Assembly: GCA_944350345.1 (NCBI GenBank)
Contig: CALVOP010000007.1
Coordinates: 1-38,323 of the forward strand
Reading direction: 5' to 3'
Source: an uncultured Bacilli bacterium
Lineage (GTDB): Bacteria; Bacillota_I; Bacilli_A; RF39; UBA660
Length of the DNA: 38,323 nucleotides
Shown here: in pieces, positions 18,248 through 27,415 of the stretch
How positions within the stretch are numbered: position 1 is the first letter of the stretch
Layout: each line of letters starts with the position of its first letter
The notes under the pieces: generated by a model
Told to the model about the DNA's origin: nothing
The model's database searches: none
What the model saw: the letters and a program-made list of their open reading frames with translations, nothing else
Program-made: the position numbers and the translations under genes

Positions 18248-19561
18248 ATGAAACAAAGTCGTGTTTACATTTTTATTATATCTTTGTTATTTTTTTCGGT
18301 TTTTCTTTTAAATGTTTCTAGAGTTTATGCTTATCAAATGTATGAAAGTTTACTTGAACCTCATTCTTCTTGCGTTAATGATCGTAGTTGTTTATTAATT
18401 TGTTCATATACCGAAGAAGAAAAGAAAAAATCAGCTGATGGGCATTTGTTTTCTACTTGGAATGCAACATATATATACTATATTTATGATACTGGAGAAT
18501 GGCAAATTACGTGGGATAAGCCAACAGCAATTGTTGGTAAAAATGATTCAATAGCTTTATCTTCTGATGAGTTATTATCTAGTGATGTTATTCATGCACA
18601 AAGCGGAGTATTAAATAAAATGATTAATACTGGAGTTTGTCCGAATTATGCTCATGTTGATAGAGGTTTTGGAAAAAATGAAGTTTGCTTTGACAATGAT
18701 GGCGAGTATTGCGCAGATAATGTTGGAAGTGCTTGGTATGATATATCTACATCATTTGGTAAATGCTCTGATAGTTTAGTTTGTTCTAAAAAATATGATG
18801 TAAATAATCAGATTATGTCATATTTAGATAATTTTAATTTTACTTTGAGAGATATAAATTTGTCAGATTTAGATTTTAATAATATTTCTTCAGAACAAGA
18901 AGATAAGCTTGATTTACTTTGTGAGGATTTAAGAGATAAAAATATTTCTGTTTCTAATCAGTTGGTTACAGATTTTTCTGTGAATTTTTTGAATAATGCG
19001 TCAGCTGAATTTATGTCAAATTGGAATTCTTATCTTTATGTAAAAAACAACGTAAAAAAATTGTATGATCCTATTATTAATAAATTGAACAAATATTGTA
19101 ATGATAAAGTCAATCATGAATATGAATCTGGTATGATAACTGAAGAAGAACGCGATGAAATTACATCTCAAAATAATCAATCATCACAAGATTTGATTAA
19201 TAACTCACAAAACGATATTGATTCTGGATTTAATATTATTAATGAAGGAAATTGGGTAAATATTGATACTAATTTAGGTGATTGTTCGGATTATATTGGA
19301 GATGCAGATGTGCAAGGAACTCCTGCATATTATATAGATTTTGTTTATGATATTATTAAAATAGTCATAGTAGTTACTTTGATATTATTATCTATGTTTG
19401 ATTTAGTTAATGCCATTATATCTGAAAAGGCTTTAAACGGAATTTATAAAAAACTTATATATAGATTAATTATTGTTATTTTAATATTGTTGTTGCCAAC
19501 TTTAATTTCTTTAGTAGGACAATTGTTAACTGGCAAAGATATTTTATGTGGAATTGGATGA
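18248..19561 (+). CDS. Secreted ectodomain fused to a VirB2-like membrane module
   Basis: The protein has 437 residues: a signal peptide (to about residue 29, RVYA), an ectodomain of about 330 residues with paired Cys (CVNDRSCLLIC; CFDNDGEYC), a helical Asn/Gln-rich stretch around 290-330, and a C-terminal membrane module (about 360-437). The module resembles the small VirB2-like protein upstream: VIVVTLILLSMFDLVNAI, a basic YKKLIYRL loop, and a second helix LIIVILILLLPTLISLVG, then a Cys. So a VirB2-type helix pair has been joined to a large exported domain. AAGGAG lies six bases before the ATG. The stop overlaps the start of the VirB6-like gene (ATGA), suggesting the two are made together and may form one membrane complex. 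The ectodomain matches no family I recognise. Confidence 0.65.
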   Translation: MKQSRVYIFIISLLFFSVFLLNVSRVYAYQMYESLLEPHSSCVNDRSCLLICSYTEEEKKKSADGHLFSTWNATYIYYIYDTGEWQITWDKPTAIVGKNDSIALSSDELLSSDVIHAQSGVLNKMINTGVCPNYAHVDRGFGKNEVCFDNDGEYCADNVGSAWYDISTSFGKCSDSLVCSKKYDVNNQIMSYLDNFNFTLRDINLSDLDFNNISSEQEDKLDLLCEDLRDKNISVSNQLVTDFSVNFLNNASAEFMSNWNSYLYVKNNVKKLYDPIINKLNKYCNDKVNHEYESGMITEEERDEITSQNNQSSQDLINNSQNDIDSGFNIINEGNWVNIDTNLGDCSDYIGDADVQGTPAYYIDFVYDIIKIVIVVTLILLSMFDLVNAIISEKALNGIYKKLIYRLIIVILILLLPTLISLVGQLLTGKDILCGIG

Positions 19562-21483
19562 TGTGTATGATTAATATTATGTTAAATTTAGTTAATAGTT
19601 TATGGATATTAGATATTTTAAAAAAGATTTGTTTGTTTTTTGATTGGCTTATATACAGTGTGGCTTCATGGTTTTTTAATGCTTTTTATCAAATTTCAAA
19701 GATGAATATATTAGTATATGATGATGCTTTACCTGATGTTTCAGTTTTGATTAAGAGAATTAAATTATTTATTGGTATTTTTGTGCTATTTATTATGGTG
19801 AGAACCTTAATTACCTATTTGACTGACCCTGAAAAAGTTATAGAACCTAGTAAAAAAATTGTAATTAATGTCTTCGTATCTATAGCTTTATTGGTCGTTT
19901 CACCAACCATATTTGATTTGATGAATGATTTTCAAAAATCCATTATAGATTATAATACATTACCTAGATTATTGTTGGGTCCTGATGTTTCTGAAGGTTT
20001 TGATGAAAATGCTGGGAAAACTTTTATGGGAAGTATGTTTACATTATTTTTTTACTGCGATAGTTGTGGTACTGATGTTAGAAATGCTATTAATTCAGTA
20101 AAAACTGGTTCTAATAATATTTTATCATTAATAAATTATACTAATAATACTGGGGTTTACTATGAATATCCAGTTTTATCAGGTATTGTTGGTATGGTTA
20201 TGACATATTACTTTATTGTTTTTGGATTAGCTTTAGGTGTTCGTATATTTAAATTATACTTTTTGCAGATTTTAGCACCTATACCTATAATTGCATATAT
20301 TGATCCAAATAAAAAAAGCTTTTGCGATAAATATCTTTCTATTTTTATAAATACATATATTGAAATTTTTGTTAGATTATTTACGATTTTAATGGCGTAC
20401 AATTTAGGACAAATGATTCTTAATGCTTTATCTACAACAAGCGGTGATAAAAGTTTTTTGGTTAAACTTTTATTGGTAATTGCTTTGTTTCAATTTGCTA
20501 AAATTTTTCCAAAAATAGTTTCTGATTTATTTAATCTTAAATCATCTCTTAGTGAATTAAAAGGTTGGGGTGCTTTACCTGGAGCAGTTTTGGGAACTGG
20601 GGCAGGATTAGCAACTGGTTTAGTTTCTGCAAAAATGGGGCATTTATCCGGCAGAGATTTTGCTTCACATGCTTTATCTTCTACTTTTAAAGGTGGAATG
20701 GCAGGTTATAAAGGTGGTCAAAAAGGAATTATGGATTTTGGCACTAGTATGGCTGGTGTTGCTACTGGTGGCTTTGTTGCTGCTAATCAAATATATAATT
20801 CTGGTGGATATGGCAATTATGTTAAAGGACGATTATTAAATAAGTTTGGAGCTGGCGAATACATTAAAAATGAGAATGAAAGATTATCTGATGCTTTAAC
20901 TAATGCAACTCAAACTAAAGATAAATTTGAGGATTATCGTGGAAGATTATCAACATTAAAAAGTGAAGCTCAACGTTTATATGATGCAAGACATAATGGT
21001 GGTTTGGCTGGTAATGTTGATTATCAAGCTCAGTTAGCTGTGAGAAAATCTGCCGCAGAAAGATTGGCTCGAAATGCTAAGGATTCTGAAGCACGTGAAA
21101 TGTTTGCTAGAGCTAACACTGCAATTAACAATATTGAACGTGACTATCGAACAGATGTGGGAAGATTCTATAATAGTGCCTTGAATGGTTCAGATACTTC
21201 GTCAGAAGCAACTACATTACGTTCTATTAGTGATAAGATAAGTAAAGAAATTAGAGATGCTGATCAAAGTATTAATTTAAGTACATATGATGGAATTAAT
21301 AATGCAGAAGCTATTTTAGATGATAGCATTGTAGTTGCTGATCATAATGTTGATACAGCACAAAGAGCTTTAAAAAAGTTTAAAGATAAAAATATTTATA
21401 AATACTCTACATTTGATGCTGGAAAAAGTAACAAGTATAAAAGTAAAAATTCATCTAGCCAATCATCTCAATCTGGCTCTTAA
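19558..21483 (+). CDS. VirB6/TrbL-like multi-pass channel protein
   Basis: VirB6-type proteins form the inner-membrane channel of type IV secretion systems. The first ~330 residues contain six or seven hydrophobic helices (for example LFIGIFVLFIMVRTLITYL, VFVSIALLVVSPTIFDLM and YYFIVFGLALGVRIF followed by LQILAPIPIIAYI; the latter is the best-kept part of the family). A Gly-rich stretch of about 75 residues (GALPGAVLGTGAG onward) leads into a long charged helical region, then a Ser/Gln/Asn-rich tail. Possible starts are ATG 19546, 19558, 19561 and 19567; 19558 gives the ATGA coupling with the upstream stop, so I choose it. The gene ends at TAA 21481, but the same frame continues as a similar Gln/Ser/Gly-rich tail to 21693 (separate entry). 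Confidence 0.75.
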   Translation: MMCMINIMLNLVNSLWILDILKKICLFFDWLIYSVASWFFNAFYQISKMNILVYDDALPDVSVLIKRIKLFIGIFVLFIMVRTLITYLTDPEKVIEPSKKIVINVFVSIALLVVSPTIFDLMNDFQKSIIDYNTLPRLLLGPDVSEGFDENAGKTFMGSMFTLFFYCDSCGTDVRNAINSVKTGSNNILSLINYTNNTGVYYEYPVLSGIVGMVMTYYFIVFGLALGVRIFKLYFLQILAPIPIIAYIDPNKKSFCDKYLSIFINTYIEIFVRLFTILMAYNLGQMILNALSTTSGDKSFLVKLLLVIALFQFAKIFPKIVSDLFNLKSSLSELKGWGALPGAVLGTGAGLATGLVSAKMGHLSGRDFASHALSSTFKGGMAGYKGGQKGIMDFGTSMAGVATGGFVAANQIYNSGGYGNYVKGRLLNKFGAGEYIKNENERLSDALTNATQTKDKFEDYRGRLSTLKSEAQRLYDARHNGGLAGNVDYQAQLAVRKSAAERLARNAKDSEAREMFARANTAINNIERDYRTDVGRFYNSALNGSDTSSEATTLRSISDKISKEIRDADQSINLSTYDGINNAEAILDDSIVVADHNVDTAQRALKKFKDKNIYKYSTFDAGKSNKYKSKNSSSQSSQSGS

Positions 21484-21693
21484 CAGGGTAATTCATCTGG
21501 TGGTGCTCAACAAGGCCAAGGGCAAACTGGTAGCGGTCAATAAAATCCAAATAGTAGTGGGCAAGCAATCAAAAATCCACCACGCGGTCCAGTAATTTAT
21601 ACTGATCAAAATGGCGAAAAAAAGACTACCTCTGGAATAACAATTAGTACAGAAGGCGATTTTCAAAAAAATATGAGAGATAGACATAAGTAA
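21481..21693 (+). other. C-terminal tail of the VirB6-like gene, interrupted by two in-frame TAA codons
   Basis: Reading on in the frame of the VirB6-like gene after TAA 21481 gives QGNSSGGAQQGQGQTGSGQ, a second TAA at 21541, then NPNSSGQAIKNPPRGP, VIYTDQNGEKKTT, SGITISTEGDFQKNMRDRHK and a double stop TAATAA at 21691. The composition continues the Ser/Gln/Gly-rich tail before the first stop, and the double stop is followed by AAGGAGG for the next gene, as expected for the true gene end. Both TAA codons sit where Gln (CAA) would fit and are one transition away from it. Loss of a dispensable tail, read-through, or errors in the assembled sequence are all possible. Confidence 0.7.
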
Positions 21694-21724
21694 TAAGTTC
21701 AAATTAAAAAAGGAGGAAAAAAGT

Positions 21725-22033
21725 ATGTATTTAATACCTGCAAATAGTAAAAAGGGACAATTAATATTTAATATGTTTAGACCAATAGATTTAATTATAT
21801 TCGCTATTGGGGCGTGCACAACACTTATATTAATGTTTGCTATACAAGCAACAACAATGTTTGCTTTGGTAATTAAATTGGCACCTATTGTAATTACTGC
21901 GTTACTCGTGATGCCGCTACCAAATTATCATAATGTAATGATGTTTTTAAAAGATGTTATTGATTTTTATAGCAATAGAAGAATATATGTGTGGAAAGGT
22001 TGGTGTGTAATGAATGAGTACTCAAAAGATTAA
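21725..22033 (+). CDS. PrgI/VirB3-like small membrane protein
   Basis: The protein has 102 residues with a polar start, two hydrophobic helices (about 22-42 and 46-65), then a cytoplasmic tail with NYHNVMMFLKDVIDFY and RRIYVWKGW. The ending aromatic motif YxWKGW after two helices, directly ahead of a VirB4 gene, is typical of PrgI-family proteins of single-membrane type IV systems, which correspond to VirB3. AAGGAGG is seven bases before the ATG. It overlaps the next gene by 20 bases in another frame, so the two are tightly coupled. Confidence 0.75.
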   Translation: MYLIPANSKKGQLIFNMFRPIDLIIFAIGACTTLILMFAIQATTMFALVIKLAPIVITALLVMPLPNYHNVMMFLKDVIDFYSNRRIYVWKGWCVMNEYSKD

Positions 22034-22580
22034 TGCTAAGGCACAAAAATATGCCGAGAATTGGTTGCCAATAAAATCTATAATGAATGGAGCAATTCAA
22101 GTAGATGGAGGTTTTAATGTAACTGGAGTAAAAATTCAACCAAAAAATATATTTATTATGGACAGTCAAAGTCAAAGTAACGCAATATTTAATTTAAGAA
22201 ACTTTTATAATACTATTGACTATGAATTTTGGTTGATAGTTGCTGATAGACCAGTTGATGTAAATGTTTATCTTTCTCAACTTCAATTGCTTTATAATAG
22301 TGTGCAAACTCCTGCAATGAGGAAACTTATTATGCAAGATATTAATAAAGCCAACTTATTTATGAGAAAAGAAATTGGAGTTTCAGATACTGAATATTAT
22401 ATTTTATTTAAGGAAAAACGACCTGAGATAATTCAAAAAAGAATTCAAAATCTCATAAGTGGTTTAGCCTCTGTTGGATTGACTGCTAGACAAGTTAGCA
22501 ATGATGATTTAAGGGTGCTTTTGGATGGATTCTTAAATGGTGGTGTAACCACTGAGTTTGGAACGGTGATTGGTGTATGA
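22014..22580 (+). CDS. VirB4 N-terminal domain encoded as a separate protein
   Basis: This 188-residue protein has no P-loop and corresponds to the N-terminal part of VirB4-family proteins. It has VTGVKIQPKNIFIMDSQSQ, then EFWLIVADRPVDVNVYLSQL, a run of charged helices, YYILFKEKRPEIIQKRIQNL and a C-terminal helix. Its stop overlaps the start of the ATPase gene by four bases (ATGA). In related VirB4 proteins this domain and the ATPase are one chain, so here the protein is split, presumably with the two parts reassembling. The start lies inside the end of the PrgI-like gene, with GGTGTG upstream as a weak ribosome binding site. Confidence 0.7.
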   Translation: MSTQKINAKAQKYAENWLPIKSIMNGAIQVDGGFNVTGVKIQPKNIFIMDSQSQSNAIFNLRNFYNTIDYEFWLIVADRPVDVNVYLSQLQLLYNSVQTPAMRKLIMQDINKANLFMRKEIGVSDTEYYILFKEKRPEIIQKRIQNLISGLASVGLTARQVSNDDLRVLLDGFLNGGVTTEFGTVIGV

Positions 22581-24361
22581 ATTTAAAAAGTCAATTAGCT
22601 CCTAAGGGGTTAGAATTTAGACCAGGAGATATGATTATTAGTGATAAATATATTACGATATTAACTATTATTGGGTATCCTAAAGTTATACCCGAAGGCT
22701 ATTTAGCTCAGTTAACGCAAATGAGTGGCATAAAAATTGTTATTAAGCATATACCTATTCAATTTAGTGTTTTATCAAAAATGTTAAATAAAGAAATTGC
22801 TGATATGAAAATGAAATATCAAAATGAGCGTGATAGAACAATTCAAGAAAGAATTAGACAAGATTATGAAAGTATTGAAAGTTTTATTAGTATGCTTACA
22901 GCTACTCAAGCTAGAATATTTGATTTTCAAATGCATGTAATTGTAACTGCAGATAATAGCGAAGAACTTGAAATGAAAAAAGTTCAAGTTAAAAATTATC
23001 TTGATGCTATGGGTATGAAAGGTATAACTTTAAGATATGAACAAGAAAAAATATTAAAAAGTTGTTTGCCAATATTTCCTAAAAATGATATTGAAGATCG
23101 TGTTGGTACGCCAATACCATCTGTTACGATGGGAGCGATGTATCCATATGTATTTGATAGTATTAAAGATCCTGGGCTTTCTTGTTTACTTGGTGTTGAT
23201 TTTAGTGGTGGAGTTATATTATTTAATCAATTCCTATATCAAATTAAGAAAGAATTCAACAGAAATAATGCTAACATGATTATGTTAGGTACATCTGGTA
23301 GTGGTAAGAGTACTGCTGCAAAATTGCTTTTAAGAACAAATATTAGAAATGGCAATAAAATTGTTGCAATTGATCCTGAAAATGAATTGTATGAGATGAC
23401 ACAAATGTATGGAGGAGACTCAATAGATTTAGGTCGTGGTGGACGTTTTGGAATGATTAATCCATTAGAAATAGTAGTGGATTCTGATGATGAGGATGCT
23501 TCTGAAGGACTAGGGTATACAATTCTTACTAGAGGATTACAAACTTTAAAAGCATTTATGAAATATTATAGTCCAGATATTGAAGAAGATGTGTTGACAT
23601 TATTTAGTGAAGTTGTTCAAGATACTTATAAAAGATATAAGATTGATATGGACACGGATTTTACTAAGTTAAAGAGTGAGGATTATCCAACATTTGATGA
23701 TGTATATGCTACTATCAAGGGTAGATTAACATCTATGATAGATAGAACACATGAAAGAGTTATAATGGAAAGATTAGAATTGAAAATTAGACCATTAATT
23801 AAAGAATTAAGGTATTATTTTACTGGTCATACAACTGTTACTCCTAATAGTGATTTTATTGTTTTTAATATAAAAGAATTAATGAATAGTGATGCTAATA
23901 TTAGAAATGCATTGTTCTTTAATATTCTTAAACATGCTTGGGGATTATGTTTGGATAAAAATACAAACACTATTTTAATGGTTGATGAAGCACATACATT
24001 ATTAGCAGATAGAAATGCACTAGGGGCTGAATTCTTGGCTCAAGTGCAAAGGCGTAGTCGTAAATATAATACTGGTACTATAATAATAACTCAGCAACCA
24101 ACTGATTTTGCTAGTCCAGAAGTGTTTATACATGGTAAAGCAATATTTGATAATGCTGCTTATTATTTGGTTATGGGATTAAAAAAACAAGCTGTTGATG
24201 ATTTGTCAAAATTAATAGATTTAAATGATCAAGAAAAAGAAAGTATAAAAAGATATAATCAAGGGGAAGCGTTGTTTGTTTGCGGATCTAGAAGAATGCG
24301 TATAAGCGTTATTGTTACTCAGGAAGAATTAGATTCATTTGGAACAGCAGGTGGTTTCTAA
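22577..24361 (+). CDS. virB4: VirB4-type secretion ATPase
   Basis: The essential ATPase of type IV secretion systems. Walker A is GTSGSGKS at residues 238-245. Walker B is NTILMVDEAHTLL around 465-475, followed by the family's RRSRKYNTGTIIITQQPTDF and a C-terminal sensor region (ELKIRPLIKELRYYFTG lies between). The N-terminal 200 residues contain the rest of the pre-ATPase region: GFRPGDM-like LEFRPGDMII, a coiled helix pair, and TLRYEQEKILKSCLPIFP just before the P-loop domain. At 594 residues it is shorter than the usual 650-800 because the first part is on the preceding gene. The ATGA overlap with that gene implies matched production. With VirD4 and CpaF it makes three different secretion ATPases in one cluster. 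Confidence 0.93.
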   Translation: MNLKSQLAPKGLEFRPGDMIISDKYITILTIIGYPKVIPEGYLAQLTQMSGIKIVIKHIPIQFSVLSKMLNKEIADMKMKYQNERDRTIQERIRQDYESIESFISMLTATQARIFDFQMHVIVTADNSEELEMKKVQVKNYLDAMGMKGITLRYEQEKILKSCLPIFPKNDIEDRVGTPIPSVTMGAMYPYVFDSIKDPGLSCLLGVDFSGGVILFNQFLYQIKKEFNRNNANMIMLGTSGSGKSTAAKLLLRTNIRNGNKIVAIDPENELYEMTQMYGGDSIDLGRGGRFGMINPLEIVVDSDDEDASEGLGYTILTRGLQTLKAFMKYYSPDIEEDVLTLFSEVVQDTYKRYKIDMDTDFTKLKSEDYPTFDDVYATIKGRLTSMIDRTHERVIMERLELKIRPLIKELRYYFTGHTTVTPNSDFIVFNIKELMNSDANIRNALFFNILKHAWGLCLDKNTNTILMVDEAHTLLADRNALGAEFLAQVQRRSRKYNTGTIIITQQPTDFASPEVFIHGKAIFDNAAYYLVMGLKKQAVDDLSKLIDLNDQEKESIKRYNQGEALFVCGSRRMRISVIVTQEELDSFGTAGGF

Positions 24362-24385: not shown

Positions 24386-27300
24386 ATGAATGAGGATAAT
24401 AATTTAACACCTGAAGAATTAGGGGAATTGCAAAGTGAAGAGGCTCAGAAAAAAACTGGGCCTAATTTGTATGACAGAGCAAATCAGATTAAAAATTCAT
24501 ATGATGATTATCAAAAGATAAAAAATAAGATTCAAGCAAGAAAATCTAAAAATATTTCAGATATAGGTTCTAATTCAGCTAAAACTGTTACAAACGCAAC
24601 TTCAACAGGAACTGCTGCTACTGGAAGTGGAACCGCCGCCGCCGGAACTGGAGCTGCTGCTACTGGAAGTGGAGCCGCCGCCGGAACTGGAGCTGCTGCT
24701 ACTGGAACTGGAGCTGCTGCTGCCGGAACTGGAGCTGCCGCTGCCGGAACTGGAGCTGCCGCCGCTGGGACTGGAGCTGCTGCCGCTGCCGGAACTGGAG
24801 CTGCTGCTGCCGGAACTGGAGCTGCCGCCGCTGGGACTGGAGCTGCCGCCGCTGCCGGAACTGGAGCTGCCGCCGCTGGAGTTGGGGCTTTTTCAATTTT
24901 AGGTATCGTTTTGTTAGTTATCTTGGCGATTGCATTAGTTGCAGTATTGATTGCTTCTATATATTATAGTATCGTCGATCCAATCTCAACAAAATATTCA
25001 GTAGATTCCGAGACTGTTGTTAATGAATATGATATTAATGATATACCAGATGATGCTGAAGATGAAAACGGCAATCTTTTGTCCGATTCTGATGTTGGTG
25101 GTATAAGAAATATTTTAAATACAGATGATTTGGATTTAGATGAATTATTTGGTGATGTGTCTTCAAGTAAACTTGGAGTCATTGATAGTATACGAGCTAA
25201 GCTTTATGAGTGGTTTAATTGGCTACCGGGGAGTAGCTATAGCGAGGCTTTAATCAATAAGATAATTGAAATAAATTTAAATGACAAATTAAGTGAAATG
25301 GGAACGGATGATAAAGAACAATTGCCGTTAGGGGCTTTGTTAACTACATTTACTTATACTTATGCAAGTCAGTATCTTGATAGTAATACTAATACTTATA
25401 AAGATATTGTTGATGGTATTAATGGTAGTACTGAAGAAGTCGATGTTAATAGGGTAAACCCTTCTACACCGATTTCGATGATTAGATCTTTGTTTAATGA
25501 GGAAATTTTAAAAATAGATAATCCTAATGATATTGTAGATTTATTGGATAATATGATTTTTCACGAATTTTATCCTACTTATAGTTGGGAAGAAGTTGAT
25601 AGTGATTGTGAATATGATGAAAATGGAGAAGTAATTTTTTGTACTATATATATGGGATGTCATAGGTCTGATAATGATTCATATCAATTAGATTATTATA
25701 AATATTATTTATATTTAAGATATGGTGCATATGTTTCTGGTTATGCTGTTGATTCAAGTAATACATATCAAAAAATAGGTGTTGGAAATACTGAACAATT
25801 GTGGGGCAAAACGGATTTAAAAAATTATAAAGATGATTCAGATGATACAATTGCTTTTGGTTATGAATATTTTAAAAATTTAAATGCGGCTTATATTTCT
25901 AGTTCAGCTGAGTGTGAGCTTAAAGAAGTTGCTGATGAATCTTTGACTGAATTAAATGCTGCTTCTGATGATAAGACTAAATATAAAATGATTACAGGTG
26001 ATGTTGAACATTCTGTAGACAGAGCTAATAATTTCTTTAAGGCAAGAGATGTAACTAATGGTGTTGATGAAATAAACAATAATCATGAAATTTTTAGCGA
26101 TTTTTCAAAATATGATGAAAAAGCAAATCCGCATGATACGCTTGATTTATCTACTCCATACATTAAAATTGATAATTCCAAACCAAATGGTAATGGTAAT
26201 TTTGCTGTCAATTATAATAATGGGGAAAATTATGAATATAAGCATGGATGGATTTATAATAGATTTCCTTTTTTTAGAGATGAGTTTCAAAAAGAGGAAG
26301 GAACAGTTTATCTTTATGATAGTGTAAAAACTCCTAAAACTATTGAATTACAGATAGAAGATATTGATTCTTATAAAGAAGTTTTTAATGATGTTTTAGG
26401 CTATGATACATCAATTTATGCTTCGGGTGGCTGGAGTTCATCATTTAACTCTGATGGTACGGAATCTTTTCCTTTGCCAGTTGGAGAATATACTATTACT
26501 TCATGTGTTGGAGAAAGAACAATTGATGGACAATTTAGTAATCATGGTGGTATAGATATTGCAGTTTCGAGAGGGACACCATTATATGCATGGAAATCTG
26601 GGGTTGTTGTAAGGACCAATAATTCTTGTGGTGAAGGTTATTATGGTGACACTTGCGGTGGTGGTTATGGTAATTTTGTAGTTATAGATCATGGAGAAGA
26701 GAATGGTGAAAAACGATATACAATATATGCACATATGAGTAATACATCCGTTCTTGTTGGTGATGAAGTAAGTGCTGGGCAACAAATAGGCACAAGTGGA
26801 AATTCTGGAAGTAGCACTGGTCCTCATTTACATTTTGAAATTAGAATTGGTGGAACAGAGTGGAAGAATTCTATTAAACAAGACCCATATCCTACATTAG
26901 CTGAAATAGTTGGCGGAGAAGATATGCCAAACCAATGTGCAGAAGGAACTATATTTAATGTCCAAGCAACATTAATTAATGGAAATAAAACTAATAGTGA
27001 AAATAAGAAAGAATTATGCGAATTATTGGTAAATAAATTTTCTCAAAATGGTGCTATCGCATTAATGGCAAATGCTGCGCATGAAAGTAGTTACAACACG
27101 GGAGCTAATGGAGATAGTGGAACTAGTTATGGCTTGTTTCAGTGGCATGCAGGAAGAAAACAAAATTTACTGAATGCCTACCCTAATTCTTATAACACTG
27201 TTCAATCGCAGTTTAACTTTTTACTTAGTGAATTAAATTCATATTCTTCTTTATACAACGATTTAATTAGTGGAGCTAAATCTTCTAAAGAACTAGCTTA

Positions 27301-27415
27301 CGATTTTTGCTATAAATTTGAAAGACCTGCAAAAAAAGAGATAAGCTGTAAAAATAGAATGTCATCTAGTAAATATAAAGACGCTGAAAATTATGTAAAA
27401 AACGGATGCCAATAA
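24386..27415 (+). CDS. Membrane-tethered M23 peptidase and lysozyme-like hydrolase with Gly/Ala repeat
   Basis: This bifunctional wall hydrolase of 1009 residues is likely the VirB1-type opener of the peptidoglycan for the machine. It starts with a charged cytoplasmic head (1-60). A Gly-Thr-Gly-Ala-Ala repeat follows (about 72-166), then a transmembrane helix (about 169-195) and a long linker domain (about 200-680) I do not recognise. The M23/LytM endopeptidase domain has H720 and D724 in HGGID, plus H814 and H816 in HLHFE, with YGNFVVIDHG and GNSGSSTGP between. The C-terminal ~120 residues match phage-tail lysozyme domains: ANAAHESSYNTGA with probable catalytic Glu900, then YGLFQWHAGRK. TGGAGG precedes the ATG. 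Bifunctional hydrolases are usual in single-membrane type IV systems; the repeat is unusual. Confidence 0.85.
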   Translation: MNEDNNLTPEELGELQSEEAQKKTGPNLYDRANQIKNSYDDYQKIKNKIQARKSKNISDIGSNSAKTVTNATSTGTAATGSGTAAAGTGAAATGSGAAAGTGAAATGTGAAAAGTGAAAAGTGAAAAGTGAAAAAGTGAAAAGTGAAAAGTGAAAAAGTGAAAAGVGAFSILGIVLLVILAIALVAVLIASIYYSIVDPISTKYSVDSETVVNEYDINDIPDDAEDENGNLLSDSDVGGIRNILNTDDLDLDELFGDVSSSKLGVIDSIRAKLYEWFNWLPGSSYSEALINKIIEINLNDKLSEMGTDDKEQLPLGALLTTFTYTYASQYLDSNTNTYKDIVDGINGSTEEVDVNRVNPSTPISMIRSLFNEEILKIDNPNDIVDLLDNMIFHEFYPTYSWEEVDSDCEYDENGEVIFCTIYMGCHRSDNDSYQLDYYKYYLYLRYGAYVSGYAVDSSNTYQKIGVGNTEQLWGKTDLKNYKDDSDDTIAFGYEYFKNLNAAYISSSAECELKEVADESLTELNAASDDKTKYKMITGDVEHSVDRANNFFKARDVTNGVDEINNNHEIFSDFSKYDEKANPHDTLDLSTPYIKIDNSKPNGNGNFAVNYNNGENYEYKHGWIYNRFPFFRDEFQKEEGTVYLYDSVKTPKTIELQIEDIDSYKEVFNDVLGYDTSIYASGGWSSSFNSDGTESFPLPVGEYTITSCVGERTIDGQFSNHGGIDIAVSRGTPLYAWKSGVVVRTNNSCGEGYYGDTCGGGYGNFVVIDHGEENGEKRYTIYAHMSNTSVLVGDEVSAGQQIGTSGNSGSSTGPHLHFEIRIGGTEWKNSIKQDPYPTLAEIVGGEDMPNQCAEGTIFNVQATLINGNKTNSENKKELCELLVNKFSQNGAIALMANAAHESSYNTGANGDSGTSYGLFQWHAGRKQNLLNAYPNSYNTVQSQFNFLLSELNSYSSLYNDLISGAKSSKELAYDFCYKFERPAKKEISCKNRMSSSKYKDAENYVKNGCQ
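24611..24888 (+). repeat. GC-rich Gly-Thr-Gly-Ala tandem repeat within the hydrolase gene
   Basis: About a dozen tandem units of 18-24 bases based on GGAACTGGAGCTGCTGCTGCC. They encode GTGAAA(A/T) with one extra Ala in some units. The tract is GC-rich in an otherwise AT-rich window, and its units vary by whole codons, so copy-number changes keep the frame. Other frames are also open here; these are shadows of the repeat. It codes for the segment between the cytoplasmic head and the membrane helix. Confidence 0.9.

Follow-up and report, generated by a model that had tools for sequence, protein, structure and literature searches.

The variability of the 3' end of a virB6-type gene was described for virB6-4 of Anaplasma phagocytophilum, which differs in length via tandem repeats; the extensions are very long, with protein lengths of 4,322 and 9,935 aa, and the gene product was detected (PMC7648143). 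Stops located between two open parts of a gene are known from ribosome bypassing of the T4 gene 60 type, and for bypassing within one frame there is no known natural case (PMC5009743).

The locus considered here lies in a window of 38,323 nucleotides, i.e., the whole stretch of DNA that was analysed, which is contig C7 of a draft genome (898 kb, 33 contigs, ~90% complete). The frame of a VirB6-like gene continues within it beyond two TAA codons. The homology of this tail, its frame, its spacing to the next gene and the presence of stops are established in two species of one genus. The explanation that we consider probable is that nonsense mutations have recently removed a lineage-specific, low-complexity, dispensable tail, and have done so in parallel in both species.

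The VirB6-like gene and its former 3' end

The VirB6-like gene, located like all features of this section on the forward strand unless stated otherwise, occupies positions 19546–21483 when the first in-frame TAA (21481–21483, context TAA CAG) is taken as its end, and encodes a polytopic membrane protein of 645 aa, with hydrophobic segments between residues 4 and 326. Beyond the first TAA the frame runs 69 more codons, interrupted only by a second TAA (21541–21543), until the TAATAA double stop at 21691–21696; these coordinates, as well as the closing of the frame just before the ribosome binding site of the next gene, confirm what was given in the first-pass annotation. The stretch between the first TAA and the double stop (21484–21690) consists of 68 sense codons and one TAA, and its last 32 codons (21595–21690, IYT...RHK) form a terminal segment discussed below. 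The beginning of the Ser/Gln-rich tail, about 20 residues (21421–21480), is still translated before the first TAA. The next gene, TcpE/VirB3-like (21725–22033), starts with the ATG at 21725 behind the ribosome binding site AAAAAAGGAGG, and its Pfam TcpE match is weak (E 6e-4, under the curated cut-off).

With a codon model trained on the window's own genes, frame 0 of 21484–21690 scores 0.45 bits/codon, compared to 0.53 in the preceding 60 codons; the value is −0.45 in frame +1 and in frame +2, and the frame-0 score was not reached in any of 4000 dinucleotide shuffles. It is the codon signature that is significant, not the low number of stops by itself (P=0.14). The distance to the tcpE-like gene points in the same direction. 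In 25 of 27 relatives the VirB6-like stop and the tcpE-like start are at most 34 nt apart; in the focal genome this start follows 241 nt after the first TAA and 28–31 nt after the final TAATAA. Since the spacing is normal only when counted from the final stop, 21691 is taken as the old gene end, and the TAATAA as the ancestral one. The codon signature, the spacing and a homologous tail in a second species bear out the earlier claim that 21484–21690 is the natural former 3' end of the VirB6-like gene.

For control, the window and 200 kb of two other contigs of the same genome (~238 kb) were considered. Of 200 ORFs in them, 86 were followed by 60 nt or more of free sequence. Where an in-frame extension other than the focal one scored highest, it was a separate small gene with a start of its own or looked like antisense signal. 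The control ORF caller left out the focal gene because it preferred an antisense ORF (21493–21819), and the focal scores come from the separate analyses of tail and spacing. This ORF (minus strand, 108 aa) overlaps the tail and the start of tcpE, and a simple ORF caller can pick it instead of tcpE. One control case, G000:C4:25107-26063 (L115), resembled a stop-split gene, with the stop in frame in 4 of 6 species of the genus, and was rejected: the halves are out of frame in two species and TTG ATG follows directly 3' of the stop, so that it looks like two adjacent genes with coupled translation. Within the tail, a separate small gene was rejected as well, as no in-frame ATG, GTG or TTG with a ribosome binding site precedes the conserved segment. 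A reading in the +1 frame (MAKKRL-LE, then a stop, in both species) gave pN/pS of 0.5, but it is only a 9-codon segment lacking a start signal, and it was not retained.

The protein is encoded beside VirB3/TcpE-like and VirB4 genes. No VirB6/TrbL profile among the Pfam or NCBIfam families matched it, nor was there a meaningful match among solved structures; the name "VirB6-like" thus denotes position and topology only. The AlphaFold model, with a mean pLDDT of 40, was set aside. Of 193 genomes in the family, 156 contain a homolog, and this conjugation-type operon seems widespread among them despite their small size (0.5–1.8 Mb). Low-complexity ends recur in the family: in 11 of 31 other homologs, S, G, Q, N, P or T make up half or more of the last 30 residues. 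The downstream VirB4 (22014–24361) is split into two overlapping genes, of which 22014–22580 matches positions 93–276 and 22577–24361 positions 294–891 of NF045975 (mycoplasma ICE VirB4); the split arrangement is also present in another genome of the genus (L002). Further downstream, 13 copies of a 21-bp tandem repeat (24604–24880) encode an Ala/Gly/Thr-rich linker of an M23 peptidase/lysozyme protein (24386–27415).

The tail in relatives and its divergence

In the first-pass annotation, the natural-tail reading was made to depend on whether homologs end at the first TAA with nothing similar to the 69 downstream codons, and the outcome is divided. On the one side, in three species of the same genus, G194 (53–54% identical), G193 and G196, VirB6 ends near the position matching residue 626, before the first TAA, and the alignment of the C-termini shows no tail, including the part still translated here. 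The closest relative found in public data, an "uncultured Bacilli bacterium" assembled from a metagenome, has the same VirB6 as G194. On the other side, a fourth species of the genus, G070, carries IYTNSNGEKTTSFGIILDGEIKLNSFLRERHK followed by a stop, 19 nt upstream of tcpE. This segment (L040, 202–297) can be aligned gap-free to the final 32 codons of the focal tail, and the two are identical at 47% of amino-acid and 67% of nucleotide positions. Sequence is not the sole basis of the homology, which also relies on position, because the per-genome E-value of the match is only 0.0014. Just upstream of the homologous segment, G070 has four stops (TAA, TAA, TAA, TGA) within ~12 codons, and these are preceded, at the start of the contig, by a 39-bp repeat that occurs four times in the same frame. 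The repeat itself (L092, G070 contig C9, 1–159) is present in 4.1 copies of the unit SGGSTGGQQGRGP, and the assembly breaks inside it. The body of VirB6 is absent from the G070 assembly, and frame continuity into the tail is not seen there. The MAFFT alignment gives no stop position common to the focal species and G070, with low complexity leaving doubt for 21541; the stops of G070 thus apparently lie at different places, which argues against one conserved read-through site.

The search for the tail covered 386 genomes of the family, and beyond those already named it gave no convincing match; the matches in G037, G155, G079, G114 and G163 (E 0.1–0.3) were to unrelated proteins or out of context. 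No intact full-length tail was found in the relatives, G070 having its four stops and the other three species no tail. Apparent in-frame stops in some family homologs were dismissed, since in the inspected cases (G194, G002) they lie upstream of the start codon. Viral contigs contained no relatives. A five-species tree of tcpE and virB4, built in iqtree under GTR, groups the focal genome with G070 with weak support (70%).

For the 32 codons shared with G070, a small sample, pN is 0.33 and pS 0.34 (pN/pS 0.99); for the flanking genes, pS is 0.62–0.68, about twice as high, and pN 0.05–0.09. The equality of pN and pS fits no protein constraint on the tail. However, the total divergence of the segment (p = 0.33) is below the flanking synonymous divergence. 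Synonymous differences amount to 6 of 18 in the segment and 115 of 174 in the flanks (P about 0.009), and codons for identical residues differ in 2 of 15 cases, compared to 303 of 810 in the flanking genes. Had the segment evolved neutrally ever since the two species separated, more differences would be expected; it was therefore under constraint during some of that period, or was exchanged, or is under constraint at the level of DNA or RNA. In a simple neutral simulation, two stops with a retained signature were best reproduced by a recent loss, at ~0.05–0.15 substitutions per site, though loosely (joint frequency about 1%). The four clustered stops of G070 next to a stop-free distal segment that kept its signature fit poorly at any distance, and here lies the main loose end of this analysis.

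Probable nonsense loss and competing explanations

It is proposed that the 3' end of the VirB6-like gene once coded for a C-terminal tail that was soluble, prone to repeats and of low complexity, and that only some species of the genus have. The hydrophobic part, which reaches up to residue 326 and is presumably membrane-embedded, and the soluble part common to relatives are complete before the first TAA; the tail would be dispensable for the channel protein, and for this reason nonsense mutations could have become fixed. In the focal species the two TAA codons would end the protein at residue 645, with the remainder untranslated and beginning to decay. As the homologous tail of G070 is broken by other stops, the loss would have occurred in parallel. 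Either the tail was gained in the ancestor of the focal genome and G070, or it was lost in the other species. Both a coding signature past the stop and pN/pS near 1, as in a nonsense-truncated decaying tail, were found. The loss of a dispensable tail, one of the options named at the outset, is accordingly the best reading, though the pattern of divergence from G070 fits neutral decay poorly.

The persistence of frame and coding signature past the stops in two species, with the distal 32 codons free of stops in both, might also be expected if the TAAs were read through or misread by near-cognate tRNAs at a low level, giving a minor long VirB6 whose tail is still under selection. We regard this as unlikely. 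The CAG following the first TAA does recall the stop-CAR read-through context, which comes from plant viruses and which, to our knowledge, is not known from bacteria. Yet with pN/pS of about 1 there is no sign that purifying selection acts on the protein past the stop, and the stops of G070, which include a TGA, are not at one conserved position. The decoding machinery does not favour the longer form suggested in the first-pass annotation either: all 31 tRNAs of the genome have sense anticodons, with no suppressor among them, the genome has two genes for release factors of the PCRF type, and the sequence 3' of the stop revealed no stimulating RNA structure, as it folded no better than shuffles. 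The same components leave almost no room for a genome that reads TAA as glutamine, even if both internal stops are placed where Gln would fit. The earlier statement that all other genes stop with TAA has to be corrected, the 28 genes of the window using TAA 18 times, TGA 8 times and TAG twice; TAA is nonetheless the commonest stop (133 of 200 in the ~238-kb sample), and stop usage, the release-factor genes and the tRNA set rule out recoding, which had been called unlikely from the start. That the ribosome instead bypasses a stop-rich segment in frame and resumes in the distal one is suggested by G070, in which a stop-dense linker separates the open repeat from the open distal segment with frame 0 kept on both sides; as no take-off stem-loop was found and the layout of the segments differs between the two species, we consider it scarcely credible. 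Low-frequency ribosome passage in both species, whether by read-through or by in-frame hopping, so that a minor VirB6 carries the terminal segment despite two to four stops, is given little chance. If it did occur, the tail would be an example, rare in bacteria, of stops being passed in frame.

The low divergence of the distal segment, with fewer synonymous changes than in the flanking genes and with conserved nucleotide blocks in the DNA alignment, would be accounted for if the segment had a role at the level of DNA or RNA, such as in the tcpE leader, and were not kept as protein. This seems quite improbable, given that Rfam has no match in the window, that folding does not exceed that of shuffled sequences, that three species of the genus lack the segment and have a normal tcpE leader, and that the frame-0 codon signature indicates a coding origin. 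The remaining possibility concerns the data, as a metagenome-assembled draft of 33 contigs could contain sequencing or assembly errors or a mixture with a minor strain. This would require two substitutions to TAA within 63 nt while the neighbouring genes are intact, and errors, also raised initially, are very improbable because G070 was assembled independently and its version of the tail is interrupted in the same way, by stops of its own.

Comparison with described systems

In genes with stop-codon read-through, a coding-like extension likewise continues in frame after a stop. Such genes differ from the VirB6-like gene, in which there are several stops, no conserved stop position, context or stimulating structure, and no visible protein constraint. 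In the T4 gene 60 type of bypassing (PMC5009743) the frame is also open on either side of a stop-containing stretch; here, in contrast, a take-off stem-loop was not found and the layout is not conserved between the two species. The case also carries a caution, that a coding-like stretch past a stop is alone no evidence of recoding.

The probable nonsense loss of the tail is closest to ordinary 3'-terminal nonsense truncation, i.e., partial pseudogenisation, in which stops likewise appear before the old end, the codon signature is retained, and the tail is variable or absent in relatives. What distinguishes the present locus is that the truncation occurs in parallel in two species of a genus, and that the distal segments of the two resemble each other more closely than would be predicted from synonymous sites in the flanks. 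The pattern suggests that a conjugation-type channel protein can acquire a C-terminal tail, have it repeated and lose it again, all of this fast and within one genus. Compared to Anaplasma virB6-4, the tail described here is short and interrupted by stops, and the tails are not homologous as far as tested, whereas the two systems resemble each other in being virB6-type genes with a variable, repeat-rich 3' end.
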